Position numbers and translations under genes: made by a program. 64,000 nt of DNA. It comes from Mesorhizobium neociceri (GTDB taxonomy: Bacteria > Pseudomonadota > Alphaproteobacteria > Rhizobiales > Rhizobiaceae). This document shows, one piece after another, positions 11,069 to 61,014 of this stretch. Each line of letters begins with the position of its first letter. Position 1 is the stretch's first letter. The stretch covers positions 1 to 64,000 of the forward strand of contig NZ_JACDTY010000020.1 in the NCBI RefSeq assembly GCF_013520985.1, written 5' to 3'. The notes beneath the pieces were generated by a model. The model saw nothing but the letters and a program-made list of their open reading frames with translations, was not told where the DNA came from and did no database searches.

Positions 11069-12670
11069 ATGGAGAAACCGGTGACGACCTCGGCGCAAGC
11101 GACCGCGCTTGCCTGCATCGACGGCATCCAGCCATCGCTGTCGGCGTGGACGCGCACCATTTTCGATTTCGGCGAGACCGCATGGCGCGAATACCAGTCG
11201 GCGGCCTGGTATGTCGCGCGGCTGAAGCATGAGGGCTTTTCGGTCGAGGAGGGGTCGGCCGGCATGCCGACCGCCTTCTGCGCCCACTGGACGAACGGTC
11301 CCGGTCCGACCATCGGCATGTACGCCGAATATGACGCCGTGCCCGGCAACTGCCAGGATGCGGCGACGGTGAAGCGGCCGCGCCCGGGTCTTGGCAGCGA
11401 GGCCGGCGGCCATACCGATCCGCATTCGGGGCTTGGCGTCGCCAGCCTCGGCGGGCTTCTGGCCACCAAGGCGACGATGCAGCGCCACGGTATCGAGGGC
11501 ACGTTGCGCTTCACCGGCGAGCCGGCGGAGAAGGTGCGGGGCTCGAAGCCGATCCATGCGGCAAAAGGCTATTATGACGGCCTTGCCGGCATGATCTCCT
11601 TCCATCCCTTCTACATGCTGCCGCTCTGCAACACCGCGCGCTGGGACACGCATTGCGGCGCTGCCTATGCGATGATCTACCGCTTCATCTGCGATGAACC
11701 CGAAAACTGGTTTCGTGCCGGCGACGGCGCGCCGATCCCGCAGGCGCATTCGGCGGTGCGCGCGCCCGGCGCCAACGATGCACTGATGACCATGTACATG
11801 GCCTCCAAGGCGCTGCGCGATTCCATGCTGCCGCACCAAGGCGGCTGGTCGATCAGCGAGGCTATCCTGACGGCAGGGCAGGCGACCGCCGACAATCTGC
11901 CGGCGGGGCTCTCCGAGATCCAGTACATGATCCGCGTGCCAACCATTGCCATGGCCGAGCAGGTCACCGCCGTGCTCGACCGTAATGCGGCCGCGGCCGC
12001 CGCGATCAGCGGCTGCCGCTACGAGCGCCATTGGGTATCGAAGTCGCGGCCGGGTCTCGCCAACCACGCCTTGGCAGGGATTACTTTTGAAGCGCTGTCC
12101 GCGGTCGGCCCGCCGCACTGGGATGAGGCGGCGAAGACGATCGCCCGCGAGGTCCAGGTCAATGCCGGCGGCATCGCAAGCGAAAACCCGTTCATAGACG
12201 AGATGGAGCGGCTGATCACGCCGCAGGAGGCTGAGGCGATCCTGCGCCGCGACCTGCCGCCGTCGCAGATCAACTCGACCTCCGACGACTACACCGACAT
12301 GTCGTGGCACGCCCCGACGGCGCGCTTCTATGTCGCCCGCCCGGCGCTGCGTTCCGCGAACGGCCACGCCTATTCATCCTGGGCGATGAATGCGCTGGGT
12401 GGCATCTCGGCCACCATCGACCCGATGGTCATTTGCGCGGCCAAGACGGTTGCGCTTGCGGCGCTTCGCCTGCTTGAGGACAAAACCGCGCGCGATGCGG
12501 CGATGGACGAATTCGTCACCCGCACCGGCGGCGGCATCGGCGGCTCGAACTGGATCGCGCCGCTTTGCGACTACGAACCCCCAACCAATTTCCGCTGGCC
12601 GGAATATGTCACCACCGCGCGTGGGCGCGACTGGTGGATTCCGAGCGGCCAATCCAATCAAGCTGCATAG
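11069..12670 (+). CDS. M20-family amidohydrolase / peptidase (AbgB-like)
   Basis: A protein of about 533 aa in the M20 metallo-amidohydrolase family, closest in style to the AbgB group. Visible landmarks are GMYAEYDAVPG, EAGGHTDPHSGLG, GTLRFTGEPAEKVRGS and a C-terminal YSSWAMNALGG. The metal motif reads H-T-D-P-H where AbgB/M20D enzymes usually have H-x-C-G-H, and PAEK replaces the common PAEE, so metal binding or activity may differ. The frame is open to 10970, inside the divergent LysR gene; I placed the start at the ATG at 11069. It is followed by a dimethylargininase-like gene, suggesting degradation of an N-acyl or guanidino compound. Confidence 0.82.
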   Translation: MEKPVTTSAQATALACIDGIQPSLSAWTRTIFDFGETAWREYQSAAWYVARLKHEGFSVEEGSAGMPTAFCAHWTNGPGPTIGMYAEYDAVPGNCQDAATVKRPRPGLGSEAGGHTDPHSGLGVASLGGLLATKATMQRHGIEGTLRFTGEPAEKVRGSKPIHAAKGYYDGLAGMISFHPFYMLPLCNTARWDTHCGAAYAMIYRFICDEPENWFRAGDGAPIPQAHSAVRAPGANDALMTMYMASKALRDSMLPHQGGWSISEAILTAGQATADNLPAGLSEIQYMIRVPTIAMAEQVTAVLDRNAAAAAAISGCRYERHWVSKSRPGLANHALAGITFEALSAVGPPHWDEAAKTIAREVQVNAGGIASENPFIDEMERLITPQEAEAILRRDLPPSQINSTSDDYTDMSWHAPTARFYVARPALRSANGHAYSSWAMNALGGISATIDPMVICAAKTVALAALRLLEDKTARDAAMDEFVTRTGGGIGGSNWIAPLCDYEPPTNFRWPEYVTTARGRDWWIPSGQSNQAA

Positions 12671-12689
12671 TCAAATCGAGGAGAACCCC

Positions 12690-13622
12690 ATGACCGTCCA
12701 TGACCGCATCGTCGCCGAGCCGTTTTCACTGCAGCGCCGCAATCCCGCCGGCGGCACCAAGCCGCTGACATCATGGGGTTTTGCCAACGAGACCGACATG
12801 CTGACCGACGTTTTGCTCGGCTCACCCAATTTCCTGCGCCACCTTTCGACCAGCTCGCTGTCGCGCAAGCACCTGCGCGAGGCGCCGTGCAACGTCCAGA
12901 TTGCGCAGGCGCAGCACAAGGATCTTGTTGCCGCCTATGAGCATTTCGGCGTCAACATCCACTGGCATGAGCCGACGCCGGAACTGCCGATGCAGGTCTA
13001 TTCCCGCGATTCCAGCGTCATGACGCCCTATGGTGCCTTCATCACCGCCATGGCCAATTGGTGGCGGCGCGGCGAGAACTATGCCGCCATCCGCACTTAC
13101 GAAAAGCTCGGCATCCCGATCTACGACATGGTCACATCAGGCACCTTCGAGGGTGGCGACTTCAACGTCATCGAGGACGGCGTCGTGCTGATCGGCTGCG
13201 GCGGCGCCCGCACGCAGGAGGAGGGCGCCCGCCAGGTGCAGGCCTGGTTCGACAAGGAGGGCTGGGAAACCCGCATCGCCTTCATCGACGAATACTACGT
13301 CCATATCGACCTGATGGTGGTGCCGATCGCCGAAAAGCTGACCGCGGTCTGCCTCGCTTGCACCGAGCCCGGCATTGTCGACTGGCTGAAGGGCAAGGGC
13401 CACGAGATCATCGACGTGCCGTTCCAGGACACGATGGCGCTTGGCTGCAACTTCATGTCGCTCGGCAAGGACAGGGTGATCGCGCCGACGTCGAGCCAGT
13501 CGCTGATCGGCCAGCTCAAGGCGCGCGGCTTCGAGGTCGCGGCGATAGACATGAGCGAAATCTCCAAGACCGGCGGCGGCATCCATTGCATGGCGCAGGC
13601 GCTCAAGCGCGAGCCGGCGTAA
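12690..13622 (+). CDS. Dimethylargininase / arginine-deiminase-related hydrolase
   Basis: A 310-aa member of the guanidino-group-modifying superfamily (DDAH, amidinotransferase, arginine deiminase). Landmarks are SRDSSVMTPYGAFI, FEGGDF, the YYVHIDLMVVPI segment with a catalytic-type His, and C-terminal GGGIHCMAQAL, whose Cys (about residue 300) is the nucleophile in the family. The likely reaction hydrolyses methylated arginine or a related guanidine to citrulline plus an amine. A strong ribosome site (GAGGAGA) precedes the ATG. It lies 19 bp after the M20 gene, so the two form one operon under the divergent LysR regulator. Confidence 0.85.
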   Translation: MTVHDRIVAEPFSLQRRNPAGGTKPLTSWGFANETDMLTDVLLGSPNFLRHLSTSSLSRKHLREAPCNVQIAQAQHKDLVAAYEHFGVNIHWHEPTPELPMQVYSRDSSVMTPYGAFITAMANWWRRGENYAAIRTYEKLGIPIYDMVTSGTFEGGDFNVIEDGVVLIGCGGARTQEEGARQVQAWFDKEGWETRIAFIDEYYVHIDLMVVPIAEKLTAVCLACTEPGIVDWLKGKGHEIIDVPFQDTMALGCNFMSLGKDRVIAPTSSQSLIGQLKARGFEVAAIDMSEISKTGGGIHCMAQALKREPA

Positions 13623-13632
13623 GGGCACGAAT

Positions 13633-13665
13633 TTGACAACACAGGCCCGGTGGGAGAAATATACA
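13633..13665 (+). promoter_or_regulatory. Predicted sigma-70-type promoter of the small peptide gene
   Basis: A perfect -35 TTGACA at 13633-13638 is followed 17-21 bp later by an AT-rich GAAATATACA stretch that can serve as -10. It lies in the short gap after the dimethylargininase stop and points at the 29-codon peptide gene. That gives the peptide its own transcription start. Confidence 0.55.
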
Positions 13666-13687
13666 CTGTCACCAGAGGAGGGATTCT

Positions 13688-13777
13688 GTGAAAAAAGCTT
13701 ATGAAGAGCCGAGCCTAGCCAAGGCGGGAAAGCTCGCATCGCTGGTTGCCGCACCCTCGTCGAAGCCCGCCCCTTGA
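13688..13777 (+). CDS. Putative RiPP precursor peptide with lasso-type leader motif
   Basis: A 29-codon frame starts with GTG at 13688 behind a very strong ribosome site (GAGGAGGGA, 13676-13684). The peptide contains YEEPSLAKAG, a match to the YxxPxLxxxG leader motif that lasso-peptide RRE proteins recognise, and continues KLASLVAAPSSKPAP. The Thr usual near the leader end is replaced by Val or Ala. It has its own promoter upstream and a hairpin terminator downstream. No cyclase, protease or RRE gene is in this window, so it would be an orphan precursor, acted on elsewhere or serving another role. The motif match is seen; the RiPP function is inference. Confidence 0.6.
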   Translation: MKKAYEEPSLAKAGKLASLVAAPSSKPAP

Positions 13778-13840
13778 TCGCTACCGGCCGCTGACGGTCG
13801 AAATGTGGTTGTCCGACAACTGGACCGAATTGTTGATGGC

Positions 13841-13869
13841 AGCCCGCCGGCTTTGAACGGCGGGCTTTT
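13841..13869 (+). terminator. Rho-independent terminator after the small peptide gene
   Basis: AGCCCGCCG and CGGCGGGCT pair over 9 bp around a GCTTTGAA loop, and the stem runs into TTTT. This is a classic intrinsic terminator. It closes the peptide unit on the plus strand and faces the convergent GntR gene. Confidence 0.75.
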
Positions 13870-13920
13870 GCTTTGCGCCAGAGCGCTGTCGCGTAAAGCC
13901 ACTCGCGGCAGGTCAGCCGG

Positions 13921-14631
13921 CTAGTCCGGTCTGTCCGAACCTGAATTGAATTTGCGCCTGGCGTTTTCCAGATGCGCGCGCATCGCTTGCCCGGCGGCTT
14001 CCGGGTCATGGCGCTCGATCGCCTCGAACACAGCCTGGTGGCCGGCGAAACTCCTGCGGTTTTCGATCTCCGTATTGGCCACGTGGATGCGCTGGTTGAT
14101 CAGCCATTCGACCAGCGCTTCGTGCGCGGCGAGGAAGATCGGATTGCCGGGGATGACGGTCAGGACGCGGTGAAACGCGACATCGGTGACGGCGAAGGCT
14201 CGCGCCCGGGGAATGGCACGCTCGTTTTCGGCCAGTGCGACGGCCAACGCGTCGATCTGTTCGCGGGTCGCCATCTCCGCGGCGTGGCGCGCGATCGAGA
14301 CCTCGAGAAACAGCCGCAATTGCTCGAAATGGCCGATGCCGTCGGGCTGGTCCATCAACAGATGCGCCGTGCCGGTCAGTTGCTCCAGCATGTTCTTCGG
14401 CGTCGGCCGCGTCACCTTCGGCCGCTCGCCGCTGTTGATCTTCACCAGCCCCATCTTCTCCAGTGCAAACAACGCCTCGCGCACCGAAGGGCGGCCGACG
14501 TCGAACATCGACATCAGGTCGCGCTCGGACGGCAGCGAGGCGCCGACCGGATAGACCTCGTCGCGGATCATCGCCTCCAGCCGAAGGCGAACTTCATCCG
14601 ACAATTTTTTTCGAACCGGCATATTGTGCAT
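13921..14631 (-). CDS. GntR-family regulator, FadR/FCD subfamily (NanR-like)
   Basis: A 236-aa repressor-type protein. It has the GntR winged helix (LRLEAMIRDEVYPVGASLPSERDLMSMFDVGRPSVREALFALE...) followed by an alpha-helical FCD domain with typical metal or ligand His positions (AFHRVLTVIPGNPIF, GHQAVFEAIERHD). It is divergent from an Opp-type transporter operon ending in a NanA-like lyase, so a NanR-like role sensing a sugar acid is plausible but unproven. The ATG at 14631 has an AAGG ribosome site; a second ATG is at 14622. Confidence 0.88.
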   Translation of the reverse strand: MHNMPVRKKLSDEVRLRLEAMIRDEVYPVGASLPSERDLMSMFDVGRPSVREALFALEKMGLVKINSGERPKVTRPTPKNMLEQLTGTAHLLMDQPDGIGHFEQLRLFLEVSIARHAAEMATREQIDALAVALAENERAIPRARAFAVTDVAFHRVLTVIPGNPIFLAAHEALVEWLINQRIHVANTEIENRRSFAGHQAVFEAIERHDPEAAGQAMRAHLENARRKFNSGSDRPD

Positions 14632-53502: not shown

Positions 53503-53729
53503 CTTCGTATTCCTGTCCTGTTGGTGTTGCCGGTTGGGGGCCATGCAGGCCGCCGCGCCAATGTCGTTTCGCGAGGGCGGATTTCGACGATCCCTGGATT
53601 ATTGTTTTCGTGACGGGCGACGGGGTCCGCGCCACCATCTGCGGCGCTTGTGCCTCTTCCCCCGCGACCCTCATTCGCGTATGGCCCCGGGCAAATCCCT
53701 CAATTTCGCATCAGCTCCCGGACCGCCCA

Positions 53730-55352
53730 ATGATCCGTCTTGAAAATATCGGCAAGCAAAACGGCCGCCAGATCGTCTTCATCGAGGCCTCGGCCGCCCT
53801 GCAGAAGGGCGAGAAGGTCGGCCTTGTCGGGCCGAACGGCGCCGGCAAGACAACCTTGTTTCGCATGATCAATGGTGAGGAGCAGCCCGACGAGGGCCAG
53901 GTCCAAGTCGATCGCGGCGTCACCATCGGCTATTTCAGCCAGGATGTCGGCGACATGGCAGGCCATAGCGCGGTCGCCGAAGTGATGAACGGCGCCGGGC
54001 CGGTCAGCGACGTGGCGGCCGAAATGGCCGAACTCGAGGCGGCCATGGCCGATCCCGAGCAGGCCGATCGGATGGACGAGATCATCGAACAATATGGCGA
54101 GGCGCAGCACCGTTTCGAGGAACTCGATGGCTATGCGCTCGACGGCCGCGCCCGCGAGGTGCTCGACGGTCTCGGCTTTTCGCAGGAGATGATGGACGGC
54201 GATGTCGGCAAGCTCTCGGGCGGCTGGAAGATGCGTGTCGCGTTGGCGCGCATCCTTTTGATGCGGCCCGACGTCATGCTGCTCGACGAGCCGTCGAACC
54301 ATCTCGATCTCGAAAGCCTGATCTGGCTGGAGCAGTTTTTGAAGGGATATGAGGGCGCGCTGCTGATGACCTCGCACGACCGCGAGTTCATGAACCGCAT
54401 CGTCAACAAGATCGTCGAGATCGACGCCGGTTCGCTCACCGCCTATTCCGGCAATTATGAATTCTACCAGCAGCAGCGGGCGATCGCCGACAAGCAGCAG
54501 CAGGCGCAGTTCGAGCGCCAGCAGGCGATGCTGGCCAAGGAGATCGCCTTCATCGAGCGCTTCAAGGCGCGTGCTTCGCATGCTGCACAGGTGCAGAGTC
54601 GGGTGAAGAAGCTCGACAAGATCGACCGCGTCGAGCCGCCCAAGCGCCGCCAGATCGTGAATTTCGACTTCCAGCCGGCGCCGCGTTGCGGCGAGGATGT
54701 CGTGACGCTGAAGAATGTCCACAAGGGCTACGGCAGCCGCACCATCTATGAAGGGCTCGACTTCCAGGTCCGCCGCCGCGAGCGCTGGTGCATCATGGGC
54801 GTCAACGGCGCCGGCAAGTCGACGCTGCTGAAGCTGGTCGCCGGTGCTTCCGACCCCGACACCGGCACGGTCGCGCGGGGGCCGAGTGTGAAAATGGGCT
54901 ATTTCGCCCAGCACGCCATGGAAGTGCTGGAGGGCGAGCGCACAGTGTTCCAGACGCTGGAGGACAATTTTCCTCAGGCCGGCCAGGCGCCGCTTCGGGC
55001 GCTCGCCGGCTGCTTCGGCTTTTCCGGCGACGAGATAGAGAAGAAATGCCGCGTGCTGTCGGGCGGCGAGAAGGCGCGGCTGGTGATGGCGCTGATGCTG
55101 TTCGATCCGCCCAATCTTCTGGTGCTGGACGAGCCGACCAACCATCTCGACATCGCCACCAAGGAGATGCTGATCACGGCGCTCTCCCAGTACGAAGGCA
55201 CCATGCTGTTCGTCTCGCACGACCGCCATTTCCTGGCCGCACTCTCCAATCGCGTGCTGGAACTGACGCCGGAAGGCATCCACACCTATGGCGGCGGCTA
55301 CACCGAATATGTCGAGCGCACGGGGCAGGAAGCGCCGGGGTTGCGAGGGTAG
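53730..55352 (+). CDS. ABC-F family ATPase (translation factor type)
   Basis: A 540-aa protein with two ABC domains and no membrane part. Domain 1 has GPNGAGKTT and LSGGWKMRVALARIL; domain 2 has GVNGAGKST and LSGGEKARLVMALML; both Walker B motifs end LDEPSNHLD/LDEPTNHLD. The charged interdomain linker (about 245-320, EFYQQQRAIADKQQQAQFE) is the ABC-F arm. These proteins act on ribosomes to ease stalled translation or antibiotic inhibition. Its last 382 bp are repeated at 57464-57845, beyond the CHAT island. The frame is open from 53610; the ATG at 53730 starts the conserved chain. Confidence 0.93.
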   Translation: MIRLENIGKQNGRQIVFIEASAALQKGEKVGLVGPNGAGKTTLFRMINGEEQPDEGQVQVDRGVTIGYFSQDVGDMAGHSAVAEVMNGAGPVSDVAAEMAELEAAMADPEQADRMDEIIEQYGEAQHRFEELDGYALDGRAREVLDGLGFSQEMMDGDVGKLSGGWKMRVALARILLMRPDVMLLDEPSNHLDLESLIWLEQFLKGYEGALLMTSHDREFMNRIVNKIVEIDAGSLTAYSGNYEFYQQQRAIADKQQQAQFERQQAMLAKEIAFIERFKARASHAAQVQSRVKKLDKIDRVEPPKRRQIVNFDFQPAPRCGEDVVTLKNVHKGYGSRTIYEGLDFQVRRRERWCIMGVNGAGKSTLLKLVAGASDPDTGTVARGPSVKMGYFAQHAMEVLEGERTVFQTLEDNFPQAGQAPLRALAGCFGFSGDEIEKKCRVLSGGEKARLVMALMLFDPPNLLVLDEPTNHLDIATKEMLITALSQYEGTMLFVSHDRHFLAALSNRVLELTPEGIHTYGGGYTEYVERTGQEAPGLRG

Positions 55353-55454
55353 GGGGATCAGGAAGGTGGTCCCTACAATCTATTCAATAACGACCTAAGA
55401 TTATCGAAAGCGTCTGCTTCATCTGGAGCTCGCTCGCCGGGGCTGAGCCCACAG

Positions 55455-55811
55455 CTAGCTCGTTGCCCGGTTGGCAAGCTGATCGAACGCAACTCCCCAA
55501 AAAAAGCCATTCTGAAAGGCGAGAGTAAAGTGTGCAAACGACATACGTGCCTTATTCAATCCGGCCGTATAATATAGTTGTGGAAATACGACCATGCTGA
55601 CGATAAGAGCAATGAAGGCGTCACTCCATGTAAAAGACCCTGCAGCTTGAGATAGAAAATCATAGGCTGCCTTAGCGACAGCGCCGAGTACCACTCCAAA
55701 ATACAACACAACCTGTCTACGGTTTTCTACGCCCTGGGCACCCATCACCGGGTAGGCGCCCCAAAGGGAGAAGTAATTCTCTATTCTCTGTGTGAAGTTA
55801 ACTTCAGCCAA
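55455..55811 (-). CDS. Small membrane protein coupled to the CHAT gene
   Basis: A protein of about 118 aa that I do not recognise. It has at least two hydrophobic stretches, QVVLYFGVVLGAVAKAAYDFL and AFIALIVSMVVFPQLYYTAGL, and probably a third weak one near AFQNGFFWGVAF. The frame is open to an ATG at 55856, but a TTG at 55811 sits 6 bp after a perfect GGAGG and overlaps the CHAT stop by 8 bp, strong signs of translational coupling. Low GC like its partner and unlike the surrounding genes. A membrane-acting effector or anchor for the CHAT protein is the natural reading (inference). Confidence 0.65.
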   Translation of the reverse strand: MAEVNFTQRIENYFSLWGAYPVMGAQGVENRRQVVLYFGVVLGAVAKAAYDFLSQAAGSFTWSDAFIALIVSMVVFPQLYYTAGLNKARMSFAHFTLAFQNGFFWGVAFDQLANRATS

Positions 55812-57258
55812 GCCAAACCTCCATATCGCGCGTGCCCACGACTTGTTCTGCATCAAAGAGTTTGCCTAGCGGCCCATCCGAACTTCCCTTTCGGAGAAGC
55901 CGCTCGAAAAGAGGCCGATATCTCTCGGGGTTTATCTTGGCCTGAGGCGCCGCTACACCCATTGCGCCGCAGTCTAGGAGCGCTTCAGTCAGAGATCTGA
56001 AGTCACCAGTCTGAGCGGATTCGCAACAGAAGAGATAAACCATCGGCGCATTGGATAATATCTTGTCGCGTATATTGTAAAAATCGTCCTCTGATACAGT
56101 GGAGCCTTCAGGCGGTGGAGCCGGCAGATATATAACTTGAGCGTCGGCGTGTGCTACTATAATCACAACATTCTTGCTGGCGCTTAAGGCTTGCAGGATG
56201 CTTTCCTTCGAAGATGATCTCACAATGGGGTAGTCGAGGCGGATTGCACTGCCAACCCATTGATCCGCAATTCCTTCCCACAGGTTCCAATGCTCGCTGG
56301 ATTTAAACACAGCGGACTGCTCGTCCTCGCTGTTAGGAATTGCCGAAATGACCTGCGTATTGGATGGAGAGATTGGTTCTCTAGTCAAAATTTTTGAAAT
56401 ATTATCAGAAAGCTTTTTAGTATTTTTATCATAAGATCGCACGACAATATCGCCTGTTAATATAGATTTAAAGTTTATATTTTGGAATTCTCCATCAACA
56501 ACGGCAATTAGACTTTTATTGCTAAAGAAGTGTCGAAGTGGCTTGGCTATCTTCTTTAGAAACGTCTCTATGGCCGTCGAGCTGTTCGCCCAGGTCGGAA
56601 GTTTAATATACATGCTCCCGTGGCGCCCGGAACCAAAGTGGATGTAGGTGACCCCGCCGTGCTGATGCACGGAGACGATCCCCTGGGAGTCTCGATCGAG
56701 CAGGGTGCTCCAATTTGTTCGAAGAAACTTGGCTGCGTCCGCGGTCGTTTTTGAGGCCTCATCGGACAGTTTTGGAGGGATGATGCTCACCTCCACCTCG
56801 CTGTATCGATTCGCAATGAACCCGAGGGTCGCGATGGACTTCCACCCCCACTTTAGCGCGGACGTGACCTGATCCACTGCTCTCTTGGATGCAGCCTGCA
56901 AATTGTCGCGTTGGGTCTTGAACCGAGAGAAGGCCTCTTCCGAGATCGTACGCAATGCGCTTCGGCTCACAAAACCACAAAAGGACGGAAATTCATTTGC
57001 GGCTTCGAGTGGCAAAAGCTCCGGCGGCGTATCATGTTCGGATTTGCCGAAAGCAATCCACTGATCAGACAGATAGTCGACTTCTGCCGCGATCCGTTTT
57101 TCATCCTCTCTTGCGACCCTTTCCCGCTCCGCCCTCTCTTTTTTCGCGGCTTCATCCTCAGCGGCCTTCAGTTGCCGCCAAGTTAGCTTCGGCTCTTGTA
57201 TTTCTACTTCGATTTCGGGCGACCGCGTCCGCGTCCGTGGCACTTCGCGAGTAACCAT
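55804..57258 (-). CDS. CHAT-domain (caspase-like) protein
   Basis: A protein of about 484 aa. The N-terminus is polar and coiled-coil-like (LTWRQLKAAEDEAAKKERAE...). The C-terminal part looks like a CHAT/caspase fold: VVIIVAHADAQ with the likely catalytic His (about 370), then APMVYLFCCESAQTGDFRSLTEALLDCGAMGVAAP with the likely Cys (about 412) in the CES motif. CHAT domains act as proteases in gasdermin-like and craspase-type defence. No TPRs are fused. The AT-rich composition contrasts with the flanks, pointing to transfer. An ATG at 57258 fits the GAGGGG ribosome site better than the one at 57264. Confidence 0.75.
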   Translation of the reverse strand: MVTREVPRTRTRSPEIEVEIQEPKLTWRQLKAAEDEAAKKERAERERVAREDEKRIAAEVDYLSDQWIAFGKSEHDTPPELLPLEAANEFPSFCGFVSRSALRTISEEAFSRFKTQRDNLQAASKRAVDQVTSALKWGWKSIATLGFIANRYSEVEVSIIPPKLSDEASKTTADAAKFLRTNWSTLLDRDSQGIVSVHQHGGVTYIHFGSGRHGSMYIKLPTWANSSTAIETFLKKIAKPLRHFFSNKSLIAVVDGEFQNINFKSILTGDIVVRSYDKNTKKLSDNISKILTREPISPSNTQVISAIPNSEDEQSAVFKSSEHWNLWEGIADQWVGSAIRLDYPIVRSSSKESILQALSASKNVVIIVAHADAQVIYLPAPPPEGSTVSEDDFYNIRDKILSNAPMVYLFCCESAQTGDFRSLTEALLDCGAMGVAAPQAKINPERYRPLFERLLRKGSSDGPLGKLFDAEQVVGTRDMEVWLG

Positions 57259-57463
57259 CGGCATCCCCTCTATTCAGCGAAACATAATATACAATCTTTA
57301 AGATCGGTCTACGTGTGAAATCGAGCCGCTGAGTCGATGTCACATGCCTAGTCCGTAGCTTTGTCTGCATGCGAGCGGATCGCCCGGCAGTCAGATCAAT
57401 GTATGGCTGCCAAGTCTCCTAATGCTGGTCACAACTCGTTACAGTAGTGGGACGCCGTTCTAT

Positions 57464-57845
57464 TCCGCAGTCCGGCCAGGCGCCGCTGCGGGCGCTCGCC
57501 GGCTGCTTCGGCTTTTCCGGCGACGAGATAGAGAAGAAATGCCGCGTGCTGTCGGGCGGCGAGAAGGCACGGCTGGTGATGGCGCTGATGCTGTTCGATC
57601 CGCCCAATCTTCTGGTGCTGGACGAGCCGACCAACCATCTCGACATCGCCACCAAGGAGATGCTGATCACGGCGCTCTCCCAGTACGAAGGCACCATGTT
57701 GTTCGTCTCGCACGACCGGCATTTCCTGGCCGCGCTGTCGAACCGCGTGCTGGAACTGACGCCGGAAGGCATCCACACCTATGGCGGCGGCTATACGGAA
57801 TATGTCGAGCGTACGGGGCAGGAAGCACCGGGGCTGAGGGGGTAG
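57464..57845 (+). pseudogene. Duplicated 3' end of the ABC-F gene
   Basis: These 382 bp match 54971-55352 without gaps at about 95%. The encoded residues are identical after the first two codons, so nearly all of roughly 17 differences are silent. It codes only the second ABC domain's signature, Walker B and tail and lacks Walker A, so it is not a functional ABC-F gene. Similarity ends exactly at the shared TAG stop. It marks the right edge of the CHAT island. Confidence 0.9.
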
Positions 57846-58062: not shown

Positions 58063-59105
58063 TGTTTAGTCCCGGCATTTGCTGGAGCGGATCAAGCTTG
58101 AAGCGCTCGGGCTGTGTGGCCCAACCTTGCAGATGAACTCATAGGGCGTGAGGCCTTTGAGGGTCTTGAGCCTGCGGCCGAAGTTGTAGGCCGAGATGAA
58201 GTCGGCGAGGTGCTGGCGGAGCTGGTCGTGGCTCTCGTAGTAGAAGCGCCTGACGGTCGCATCCTTGATGGTTCGGTTCATCCTCTCTACCTGGCCGTTG
58301 GTCCATGGGTGCCTCACCTTGGTCGTGCGGTGCTCGATGTCATTCCTGGCGCAGGTGAGCTCGAAGGCATGGGCCCAGACAGTCTCGCCATTATCGAGAG
58401 CCTCCTTGATGAGTGGCACGGCCGACCCGCCGGCGCCGGGCGTGGTGAACTGGATGCCGTTGTCGGTGAGCACGGTGTGGATCTTGTAGGGAACGGCCGC
58501 GATCAGGCGCAGCAGGAAACCCTTGGAGACGGCCGTGGTGGCCTTCTCGTGCAGTTCGACGAAAGCGAACTTCGAGGTGCGATCGATGGCGACGAACATG
58601 TGCAGCTTGCCCTGTTCGGTGCGCACCTCGGCGACGTCGATGTGGAAGTAGCCGATCGGGTAGCTCTTGAACTTCTTCTTCGCCGGCTTGTCGCCTTCTA
58701 CGTCCGGGAGCCGGCCGATGCCATGGCGTTGCAGACAGCGATGCAATGAAGACCGCGTCAGGTGCGGGATCGTTGGTTGTAGGGCATAGAGGCAGTCATC
58801 GAGCGGCAACAGCGTGTAGCACCGAAAGGCGACGATGACGGCCTCCTCCTCGGGCGAGAGCACCGTCGATCTCGGCTCTCTCGGACCGGTCGGCAGATCG
58901 GCGACCGAAGCTCGCCTCTTCCACTTCGCAACCGTCTTCTGGTTGATCCCGTAGCGTTTGGCCAGCGCCCTCAGGCTCTCTTGACTATGCTGTATCGCTC
59001 GACGGACCGCCTCTGTCGTCGTGGCGCTCCCGTGTAGAATTTGGCCCATAGTGCATCCCTTGATTCGGAGGATAAGGATGCCCCATCAAAGCTTGGGATC
59101 AAACA
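58063..59105. mobile_element. IS481-family insertion sequence, 1043 bp, with 6-bp target duplication
   Basis: The left end TGTTTAGTCCCGGCATTTGC is imperfectly inverted at the right end (its complement reads TGTTTGATCCCAAGCTTTG). TCTAGG flanks both ends (58057-58062 and 59106-59111) as a target duplication. One transposase gene fills the element and its stop codon lies in the left terminal repeat, so the copy looks complete. Confidence 0.88.
58066..59049 (-). CDS. IS481-family transposase
   Basis: A 327-aa transposase. An N-terminal HTH (SLRALAKRYGINQKTVAKWKRR) precedes the rve/DDE integrase core: FHIDVAEVR (first Asp), VLTDNGIQFT (second Asp) and HPWTNGQVERMNRTIKD (Glu). All three catalytic acids are present. 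The gene fills the whole insertion sequence. Confidence 0.93.
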   Translation of the reverse strand: MGQILHGSATTTEAVRRAIQHSQESLRALAKRYGINQKTVAKWKRRASVADLPTGPREPRSTVLSPEEEAVIVAFRCYTLLPLDDCLYALQPTIPHLTRSSLHRCLQRHGIGRLPDVEGDKPAKKKFKSYPIGYFHIDVAEVRTEQGKLHMFVAIDRTSKFAFVELHEKATTAVSKGFLLRLIAAVPYKIHTVLTDNGIQFTTPGAGGSAVPLIKEALDNGETVWAHAFELTCARNDIEHRTTKVRHPWTNGQVERMNRTIKDATVRRFYYESHDQLRQHLADFISAYNFGRRLKTLKGLTPYEFICKVGPHSPSASSLIRSSKCRD

Positions 59106-59106
59106 T

Positions 59107-60624
59107 CTAGGGTTGCTCATATGCTGCGAGTGCCTTGGCGACGCCGGCAATGACGTGCTCAACATCGCTCGCGTGTTCGAAGGCGATTCCGGTTTGCGCA
59201 AACTCCAGTGGCGAATAATCAGGCGCTATCCGCTTGACCTCTGCCATGATGCGCTGGGCTTCTCCGAGATCGCCGAGTTGAGCGTGGCACGCCGCCAGCC
59301 TTGTCAGCCGCCAGGGGGTCTTCAAGGGGAGCTTGGACATGCTGACGAGCGCGGCCTTGTAGTCTCCAACCGAGTATAGCGCGATGGCGCGATCGGCGTG
59401 GTACCAGTCTGGATGGATTGGGTTGATCCGTATTGCGCCGTCAAATGCCGCAAGAGCCTCAAGAGGCCTGCCTCGCATCGTGAGTAAGTATCCCATTTGC
59501 GCGATTGTGTCGGCGTCATATGGGTTTAGCTGAAGTGAGCGTTGAAGGTGATGTTCAGCCGCTTCGAACCGGCGGGCAAAGAGGAAAGCCTGGGCGAGTA
59601 CGCGATGACAGCGTGGCTCTTCCGGCGCCAAGGTCACCGCACACTCCGCGCGGTCGATCACTGAACCAAGCAACGCCGGGGATGCCTCGGCACAGCCACC
59701 GATAAGGAGATCGGCGAGCGCGATGTAAGAATGCGCCAAGGCATAGGTCGGGTCCTTTTCGACCGCAGCCTGGAAAAGACCGCGCGCGGCCTCATTGTCA
59801 TCATCGCCGTAACCGCGCAGCCGGACCAGTCCACGCAGGAAAAGCTCGTATGCGGCCAGGCTGTCGGGAGGTTTTGGGGTTGCTTGCTTGACACCTGCGT
59901 CGTCGAGCCGAGCGACCAGCCGGTTCACCACACGGTGGGCGATTTCTTCCTGCATGTCGAAGATCTCGCCGCCGGACGCGGAAAAGGTTTCGCTCCAGAG
60001 GACTCCACCCGTCGAAGCAATAATGAGACTGACGGTGACCCGCATGCCGTCTGCGCGGGTCGTCGCCCTGCCGCGGACCAGATAGGTTGCGCCAAGGCTG
60101 TCGCCAATGGCACGCCAATCGGAAGCGGAACCCGAGACAAATTCAAATCCGGAATTGCGTGCCAGCACGACGACCGTTCCGAAGCGAGCCAACGCATTGA
60201 CAATGTCCTCGGCGAAACCGTCGATCAAAGGGGTGTCTTCCGGCGCACCTTCATTGCTGAAACGCAGCACCGCAACACTCGGATATCCAGAGCACTCTTG
60301 CTTTGGCGCCTCGAGAAGAGAGAGGATGTAGCCGCGTTTGGCGACCGTGCGGATAATGGTTTGGCTTTCGTCGTGCAGCGCCTTTCGCAACTCCCTGACC
60401 GCCTGCGTCAGTGAGTCCTCGGTCACAAAGACATCGGGCCACACCGCGGACATCAGTTCCGACTTGGTCGCGACGCGCCCGACATTCCTGCTGAGATAGG
60501 TCAGCAGGTCAAACGCCTTGGAGCGCAGAGCAACAGGTTTGCCGTCGCACAGCAGCAAACCGCGGGCAAGATCAAGCTCGCAACTGCCAAGTGCCAGTAC
60601 GTGCCCTGGGTTTTCTCGCGACAT
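59107..60624 (-). CDS. Winged-helix (CadC/OmpR-type) regulator with TolB-like and TPR regions
   Basis: A protein of about 505 aa. The N-terminus is an OmpR/PhoB-type DNA-binding domain (CELDLARGLLLCDGKPVALRSKAFDLLTYLSRN...LTQAVRELRKALHDESQTIIRTVAKRGYIL). Next is a TolB-like segment (SVAVLRFSNEG, DGFAEDIVNALARF, YLVRGRATTRADGMRV), then several TPR-like helices. No membrane span and no cyclase domain are present, unlike many rhizobial relatives. The TAG stop lies inside the IS481 target duplication, so the IS landed directly at its 3' end without shortening it. A small gene overlaps its 5' end. Confidence 0.85.
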   Translation of the reverse strand: MSRENPGHVLALGSCELDLARGLLLCDGKPVALRSKAFDLLTYLSRNVGRVATKSELMSAVWPDVFVTEDSLTQAVRELRKALHDESQTIIRTVAKRGYILSLLEAPKQECSGYPSVAVLRFSNEGAPEDTPLIDGFAEDIVNALARFGTVVVLARNSGFEFVSGSASDWRAIGDSLGATYLVRGRATTRADGMRVTVSLIIASTGGVLWSETFSASGGEIFDMQEEIAHRVVNRLVARLDDAGVKQATPKPPDSLAAYELFLRGLVRLRGYGDDDNEAARGLFQAAVEKDPTYALAHSYIALADLLIGGCAEASPALLGSVIDRAECAVTLAPEEPRCHRVLAQAFLFARRFEAAEHHLQRSLQLNPYDADTIAQMGYLLTMRGRPLEALAAFDGAIRINPIHPDWYHADRAIALYSVGDYKAALVSMSKLPLKTPWRLTRLAACHAQLGDLGEAQRIMAEVKRIAPDYSPLEFAQTGIAFEHASDVEHVIAGVAKALAAYEQP

Positions 60625-60877
60625 TGAATGCCGATCTGACCAGCTCGACCAAACGCTGCCTGATTGGGGTCTCAATCGGCGCGGACGTCAAGGGATCAGG
60701 AGAATTTGATCCGACTTCACCTTGGCTGGAGGTCATGCGCCTCTCCACGGCGATGATCTCGAGCATTTCGAACATTGTTCCAGGCATGGGCGCACAAGGG
60801 GACCCAGCCATGACGCTGGATGCAAATTCCAGGAGTTCCTGCCGGGCGGCTTGGCGCGTGTTCTCATTCGGTGACAT
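60572..60877 (-). CDS. Small hypothetical protein overlapping the regulator start
   Basis: A 101-aa protein of unknown function. A strong ribosome site (GGAGGAGG, 6 bp before the ATG at 60877) supports it, and its 3' end overlaps the regulator start by 53 bp in another frame, suggesting coupled translation. The chain is mostly helical and charged, without a signal or motif I know (MSPNENTRQAARQELLEFAS start). It may tune expression of the regulator. Confidence 0.55.
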   Translation of the reverse strand: MSPNENTRQAARQELLEFASSVMAGSPCAPMPGTMFEMLEIIAVERRMTSSQGEVGSNSPDPLTSAPIETPIRQRLVELVRSAFNVARKPRARTGTWQLRA

Positions 60878-61014
60878 GGTCGACCTCCTCCAGTTCGCCC
60901 TTGAGAACAATGAAGCCAAAGGACTGGCGCGTACCGGAAGATTTCTGAAATTCTGCTGAATCTTTCTGTCGATCCATATGTCGAGCACAGGGGACAGGAA
61001 GCGCCGGCTGCGGA

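Follow-up and report, generated by a model that had tools for sequence, protein, structure and literature searches.

An overlapping gene pair for a CHAT/caspase-like protease and a small membrane protein in Mesorhizobium neociceri, a candidate mobile two-gene module

Introduction

The locus analyzed here raises the question of what a CHAT/caspase-like protein does beside a small membrane protein whose gene overlaps its own, and of how the two genes reached this genome. The window, that is, the whole stretch of DNA analyzed, comprises 64,000 nucleotides of Mesorhizobium neociceri (contig NZ_JACDTY010000020.1). A preliminary description of the window had proposed the pair as a candidate defence or cell-death module within a mobile defence island. 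We compared the window with the loci of three other genomes that encode a full-length protease, L002 (Bradyrhizobium zhengyangense, G757), L003 (G450), and L012 (G547), all from one genus, and with L014, a locus where the module is absent.

Results

The protease and its predicted fold

The CHAT/caspase-like protein (484 aa) is encoded on the minus strand at 55804..57258. An alternative ATG at 57264 would yield 486 aa; judging by its sequence, the upstream GAGGGG fits the ATG at 57258 better. The two motifs on which the preliminary description had based its assignment were both found on this strand. VAHAD contains His370 and FCCESA contains Cys411/412 (numbering of the 484-aa form), and the presumed dyad is His370 and Cys412, whose spacing of 42 residues agrees with CHAT and clan CD peptidases. 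The His and Cys are invariant in 11/11 aligned family members and are also present in the L012 protein. Structure prediction, which had been proposed as a check, combined with Foldseek, resulted in a predicted caspase/CHAT-like fold, and the best match of the model was the separase protease domain (E 1.4e-6).

In the Pfam scans, seven of the 11 aligned members matched PF12770 (CHAT) at E<=1, with a best value of 0.00059. The window protein did not match PF12770, and neither did the L012 protein at E<=0.1. The scans of the window protein found no TPR at E<=1 and no SAVED domain; its N-terminus is helical in the model. From residue ~163, the window protease has the two-domain caspase region common to Csx29 and separase, so a separate sensor, if any, would have to lie in the first ~155 residues, which are helical. 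The N-terminal half, previously left unassigned as a whole, thus divides into this helical part, for which the description stands, and the Csx29/separase-like caspase region, for which it does not.

Between the 640-aa proteases of L002 and L003, dN/dS was 0.37 for residues 1-330 and 0.13 for the remainder, and the value for the membrane protein was 0.09. At the level of sequence, the module is under purifying selection between these two loci, and the faster-evolving protease N-terminus would suit a sensing role.

Gene overlap and co-conservation

The TGA of the CHAT gene (55806-55804) overlaps the TTG start of the membrane gene at 55811, which gives an 8-nt overlap at 55804..55811 on the minus strand. 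A GGAGG ribosome-binding site (55818..55822, minus strand) lies six bases ahead of this TTG, within the CHAT gene, at its codons for MEVW. The overlap and the placement of GGAGG were thus confirmed at 55804-55822, as first described, and the arrangement is the same in 4/4 genomic loci, where the overlap reads ATGGAGNNNTGGCTTGGCT followed by GA or AA and the GGAG is kept. A longer frame of 133 aa, starting at TTG 55856, was present in the ORF list; since the overlapping start is conserved in 4/4 loci, we took TTG 55811 as the start of the membrane gene.

Whether the two genes are conserved together had been posed as a further check. In L002, L003, and L012 (3/3), the membrane gene lies directly downstream of the full-length protease gene, with the 8-nt overlap and GGAG before the TTG. 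The pair is scarce. A single-sequence search of genome_contigs with the window protease gave none, and an alignment search then gave two loci. The protease was found in one of 199 relatives, the window's own genome, with no match in the 198 others, and in two of 397 genomes of the order (the window's own and G450). It was also found in six of 265 genomes of G450's genus, three of these being weak, unlike matches, and in three of 391 genomes of G450's family, including one weak, unlike match. The membrane-family alignment detected the window's own genome alone among 299 genomes of the phylum, and likewise among 220 of the class. Among the membrane-family matches listed (120 of 560), two of the eight other CHAT database matches had a counterpart on a contig of equal length (6245 and 2595) and may therefore be paired with it. 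Generic CHAT matches in G606, G755, and G729 were set aside, as they covered 62-78 profile positions in 3.2-kb loci without the FQ.GFFW partner. The record of L003 is named 'Frankia sp. RB7'; its genome falls in the genus of Bradyrhizobium zhengyangense, and the name looks wrong.

From these comparisons of sequence, the two genes form a real, rare, co-conserved protease-membrane pair, whose partner family is undescribed in the libraries searched.

The membrane partner and its family

The small membrane protein (55455..55811, minus strand) has 118 aa and a TTG start. Three longer helices are predicted; two are clearly hydrophobic, and the third, with AFQNGFFW, is less so. Its structure model was weak (pLDDT 65) and provided no usable fold match. 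A single-sequence search returned 12 matches including the query, and of the 7,996 candidates scored with an alignment of 15 sequences, 560 matched at E<=0.01, the window included. Among the matches listed (120 of 560), an organism was named for three: Acidobacteria, Pyrinomonadaceae, and 'Frankia sp. RB7'. Twenty diverse members chosen from the family keep F14, L16, G39, V40, G43, I70, F76, P77, and the FQ.GFFW block, and a Kyte-Doolittle scan of them predicted two clearly hydrophobic segments in 17 and one in three.

For the window partner, no Pfam family was found, and no Pfam family matched more than four of the 20 members at E<=1 (best E 0.0037). Against PHROGs, the family gave weak matches alone, with holin phrog_6384 at E 0.077. 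The PDB contains bacterial gasdermins; a profile of 14 partners gave 0 matches to PDB sequences at E<=5, so no solved gasdermin was matched.

Proteins that share the C-terminal block are encoded on three viral contigs (L086, L087, and L088), and hhalign aligned the viral proteins of L086 and L088 to the membrane family at E 1.1e-10 and E 2.4e-8, respectively. The match lies at the contig start in L086 and L087, so the preceding sequence is out of view. In L088 (7554-8306), a 251-aa protein ends in the block, with no CHAT gene among the neighboring ORFs read, and the protease alignment found nothing in viral_contigs. The membrane family yielded 560 matches with an alignment query and the protease nine with a single-sequence query, the window counted in both; although the searches differed in kind, the membrane family may have other partners.

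The insert and its flanking gene-tail copies

The two genes were the only ones recognized in an inserted cargo at 55353..57462, whose GC content of 50.7% contrasts with the 62.8% of the window; the low GC reported at first is therefore borne out, and the lowest-GC 2110-bp stretch clear of the insert reached 58.8% (200-bp steps). The module lies just past the stop of an intact ABC-F type ATPase gene (53610..55352, plus strand). The last 383 bp of this gene (54970..55352, plus strand) recur beyond the insert as a truncated tail copy (57463..57845, plus strand, 383 bp), with 17 mismatches and no gap (95.6% identity), which agrees with the duplicated gene end seen previously. In L003, the last 388 bp of the gene before the module are copied on the far side at 92.8%, and the copy extends 32 bp beyond the stop. 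A tail copy of ~385 bp is thus found on the far side in 2/4 loci, and L002 had no flanking repeat of this kind. The two lytic transglycosylase genes at L012 were considered as a tail duplication and rejected, as the same two genes are in tandem in several of 70 genomes (for example G658, G524, and G733); at L012, the module accordingly seems simply to have been inserted between them.

The window tail copies differ by 15 synonymous codon differences and one nonsynonymous (dN/dS 0.02), and those of L003 by 14 and nine (dN/dS 0.16). In a decaying copy, drift would favor nonsynonymous differences; this synonymous excess indicates that both copies most likely functioned as genes in separate lineages while they diverged and were brought together later, and hence that horizontal transfer probably delivered the module. 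Together with the differing sites, this supports the word 'mobile' in the preliminary description. As judged from the copies, integration of tail plus cargo by homologous recombination in the gene would fit as the mechanism.

At L014, the insert is absent downstream of the ABC-F gene, which is followed by ~55 bp and then by sequence that starts at 59106 in the window. At the 17 tail differences, L014 has the base of the upstream copy 11 times and that of the downstream copy four times. The 29 relatives were mixed, with L022, L026, L030, L038, and L041 favoring the downstream copy, and relatives were mixed for the L003 copies as well. By eye, the bases past the stop of the downstream copy resemble those after the gene in L014 and look native. 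The ABC-F gene is widespread, with some match in 59 of 61 genomes.

In the 98,328-bp contig, the tail duplication was the only same-strand repeat of at least 100 bp and at least 80% identity within 10 kb. Two control stretches of 400 kb had eight and one such repeats, and one of these was at least 300 bp and at least 90% identical; this control (800 kb) is small, and its contrast with 2/4 module loci was noticed after the fact. That control repeat, L091 (G000:C11:33454-38022, same genome), consists of two AraC-like ORFs (520 bp, 95.8%) that flank kinase and response-regulator (two-component) genes, named by eye.

Several further observations concern the same gene end. Past the next gene of the window (59107-60675), at 60976-61007, there is a 32-bp remnant of the ABC-F tail (91%), which points to an earlier insertion at this gene end. 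In L073 (G019:C247, 2615-7057), the ABC-F gene is followed by other cargo (465-aa and 221-aa ORFs) and then by a 159-bp tail fragment (84%), that is, the same target gene with a different insert. Short tail remnants (76-81%) lie downstream of the gene in L036 (3357-3409) and L038 (4025-4092), in 1.5 kb of flank. An IS transposase gene (rve domain, 58066-59049) separates the tail copy from the next gene in the window and is absent at the L014 equivalent. The Rfam search was empty, and the promoter and terminator scan stayed at chance level.

Surroundings of the four loci and the defence question

The module follows the ABC-F gene in the window. In both L003 and L002 it lies downstream of livF, with an SDR gene also preceding it in L003 but not in L002, and in L012 it lies between the two lytic transglycosylase genes (names in L002, L003, and L012 by eye). 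The liv region and the module are common to L002 and L003 at 87-88% identity; these two may go back to one insertion, which leaves at least three sites.

For the defence question, we confronted the proteins with PADLOC 2.0.0. No family matched either window protein at E<=1; the 118-aa membrane form gave one chance-level match (0.03), and one of 11 family members matched LeoA at 1e-5. Of eight window neighbors, five had no match at E<=0.001 and three matched common domains (ABC ATPase, 2OG, and TPR). The ABC-F gene matched 21 PADLOC models (best mad3, 7.9e-53), which we read as cross-matches between ATPases. The defence island proposed for the window is weakened by these results. At L012, a KAP NTPase gene (12241-14343; PF07693, 1e-29) that is PifA-like (PADLOC, 3.8e-24) adjoins the lytic transglycosylase gene beyond the module, so the proposal finds a defence-type neighbor at one of four loci. 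The window and L003 each have a Trans_reg_C/TPR regulator beyond the module, the two being 30% identical; this regulator type could hint at signaling rather than killing, although in L014 the gene occupies that place in the absence of the module. The PifA-like neighbor and the common regulator type thus pull the module's role in opposite directions. Phage defence would be a plausible role for the pair.

Discussion

Our tentative reading, possible rather than probable, is a horizontally moving two-gene module in which a translationally coupled CHAT protease and a membrane protein act jointly at the inner membrane, the protease triggering its partner. The predicted fold, the conserved dyad residues, the gene overlap, the co-conservation, and the horizontal arrival support the module itself; joint action at the membrane and the triggering of the partner are the inferred part. 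In the mechanism that we envisage, the protease consists of a helical N-terminus followed by the two-domain separase/Csx29-like caspase region, and translational coupling would make both proteins together. The faster-evolving N-terminus would sense a trigger and the protease would become active. It would then cut or re-arrange the conserved N-terminal segment of the partner (YFSL...P..G), presumed to be cytosolic, and the membrane helices would, as an effector possibly directed against phages, arrest growth or permeabilise the membrane. That the protease acts on, or through, its coupled partner is our best guess; the partner's role as the substrate is itself a guess, and it could be an anchor instead.

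The strongest rival develops this last point and, although doubtful in itself, is nearly as likely as the main reading. Here, the membrane protein would be a receptor or anchor that detects envelope stress or the entry of a phage and keeps the protease at the membrane, and the protease would cut another protein, such as an anti-sigma factor, with a transcriptional response as the result. However, no third gene was recognized in the window insert, the regulator of the window is also in place in L014, where the module is absent, and in the ORFs that we read at L002 and L012 we noticed no regulator.

An accessory function outside defence (envelope upkeep or stress response), merely rare and mobile, is unlikely. 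The window neighbors, several of them named by eye, look metabolic or regulatory, which is in its favor, as are the searches of mobile elements: the tested proteins had no matches in plasmid or phage records, the window protease having been searched in plasmid records and a relative in plasmid and phage records. Against it stand the PifA-like gene near the module at L012 and the scattered occurrence of the protease, since conflict systems are the more usual setting for caspase-like proteases that scatter between genomes. A toxin-antitoxin-like addiction unit that keeps the mobile segment, with a toxic membrane protein restrained by the protease, would account for the small membrane protein, the overlapping genes, and the scattered sites, but it is highly improbable, as a large protease with its dyad retained would be an unusual antitoxin.

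The reading of a protease that triggers its coupled partner can also be extended to a minimal two-gene abortive-infection module, in which a Csx29/separase-like protease would act, without CRISPR or gasdermin, on new three-helix membrane effectors (YFSL...AFQNGFFW). Such a module would spread without its own recombinase, through a host 3' gene-end copy of ~385 bp that rebuilds the gene on integration. In this full form, we consider it improbable.

If the protease does act on its partner, the pair would represent a further route from a caspase-like switch to the bacterial membrane, beside gasdermins and CRISPR-linked proteases, and one whose compactness lends itself to testing. The membrane family, nameless in the libraries searched despite hundreds of database matches, would gain its first functional handle. 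The gene-tail copies would, in turn, indicate a simple way for small cargo to enter genomes without an integrase. Among the matches listed in the literature search (titles and abstract openings), none dealt with a CHAT protease that has a small membrane protein as its partner, or with a tail-duplicating insertion, and the search found no paper on DdvA. The literature cited comprises PMC10028731, PMC9729208, and PMC9612521.

Among known systems, the separase protease domain (5fby, 5fc2) is the best Foldseek match, although it belongs to a eukaryotic enzyme with 9-12% identity to the window protease. Csx29, the TPR-CHAT protease of type III-E CRISPR (Craspase), is 8-14% identical; it has TPR, whereas the window protease has no TPR match and is accompanied by a coupled membrane protein. 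The SAVED-CHAT protease (8tl0) differs by its SAVED domain, not found in the window protease. In DdvA, a transmembrane anti-sigma factor (8rot, 8rw5), the membrane part belongs to the same protein, while in the window it is a separate one. As described in the literature, bacterial gasdermin operons resemble the window pair in that a caspase-like/CHAT protease gene adjoins the gene of a membrane-acting protein; the window partner, however, has 118 aa and hydrophobic helices, and its sequence matched no solved structure. We take the pair as a variant of the CHAT kind whose membrane partner family is undescribed in the libraries searched.
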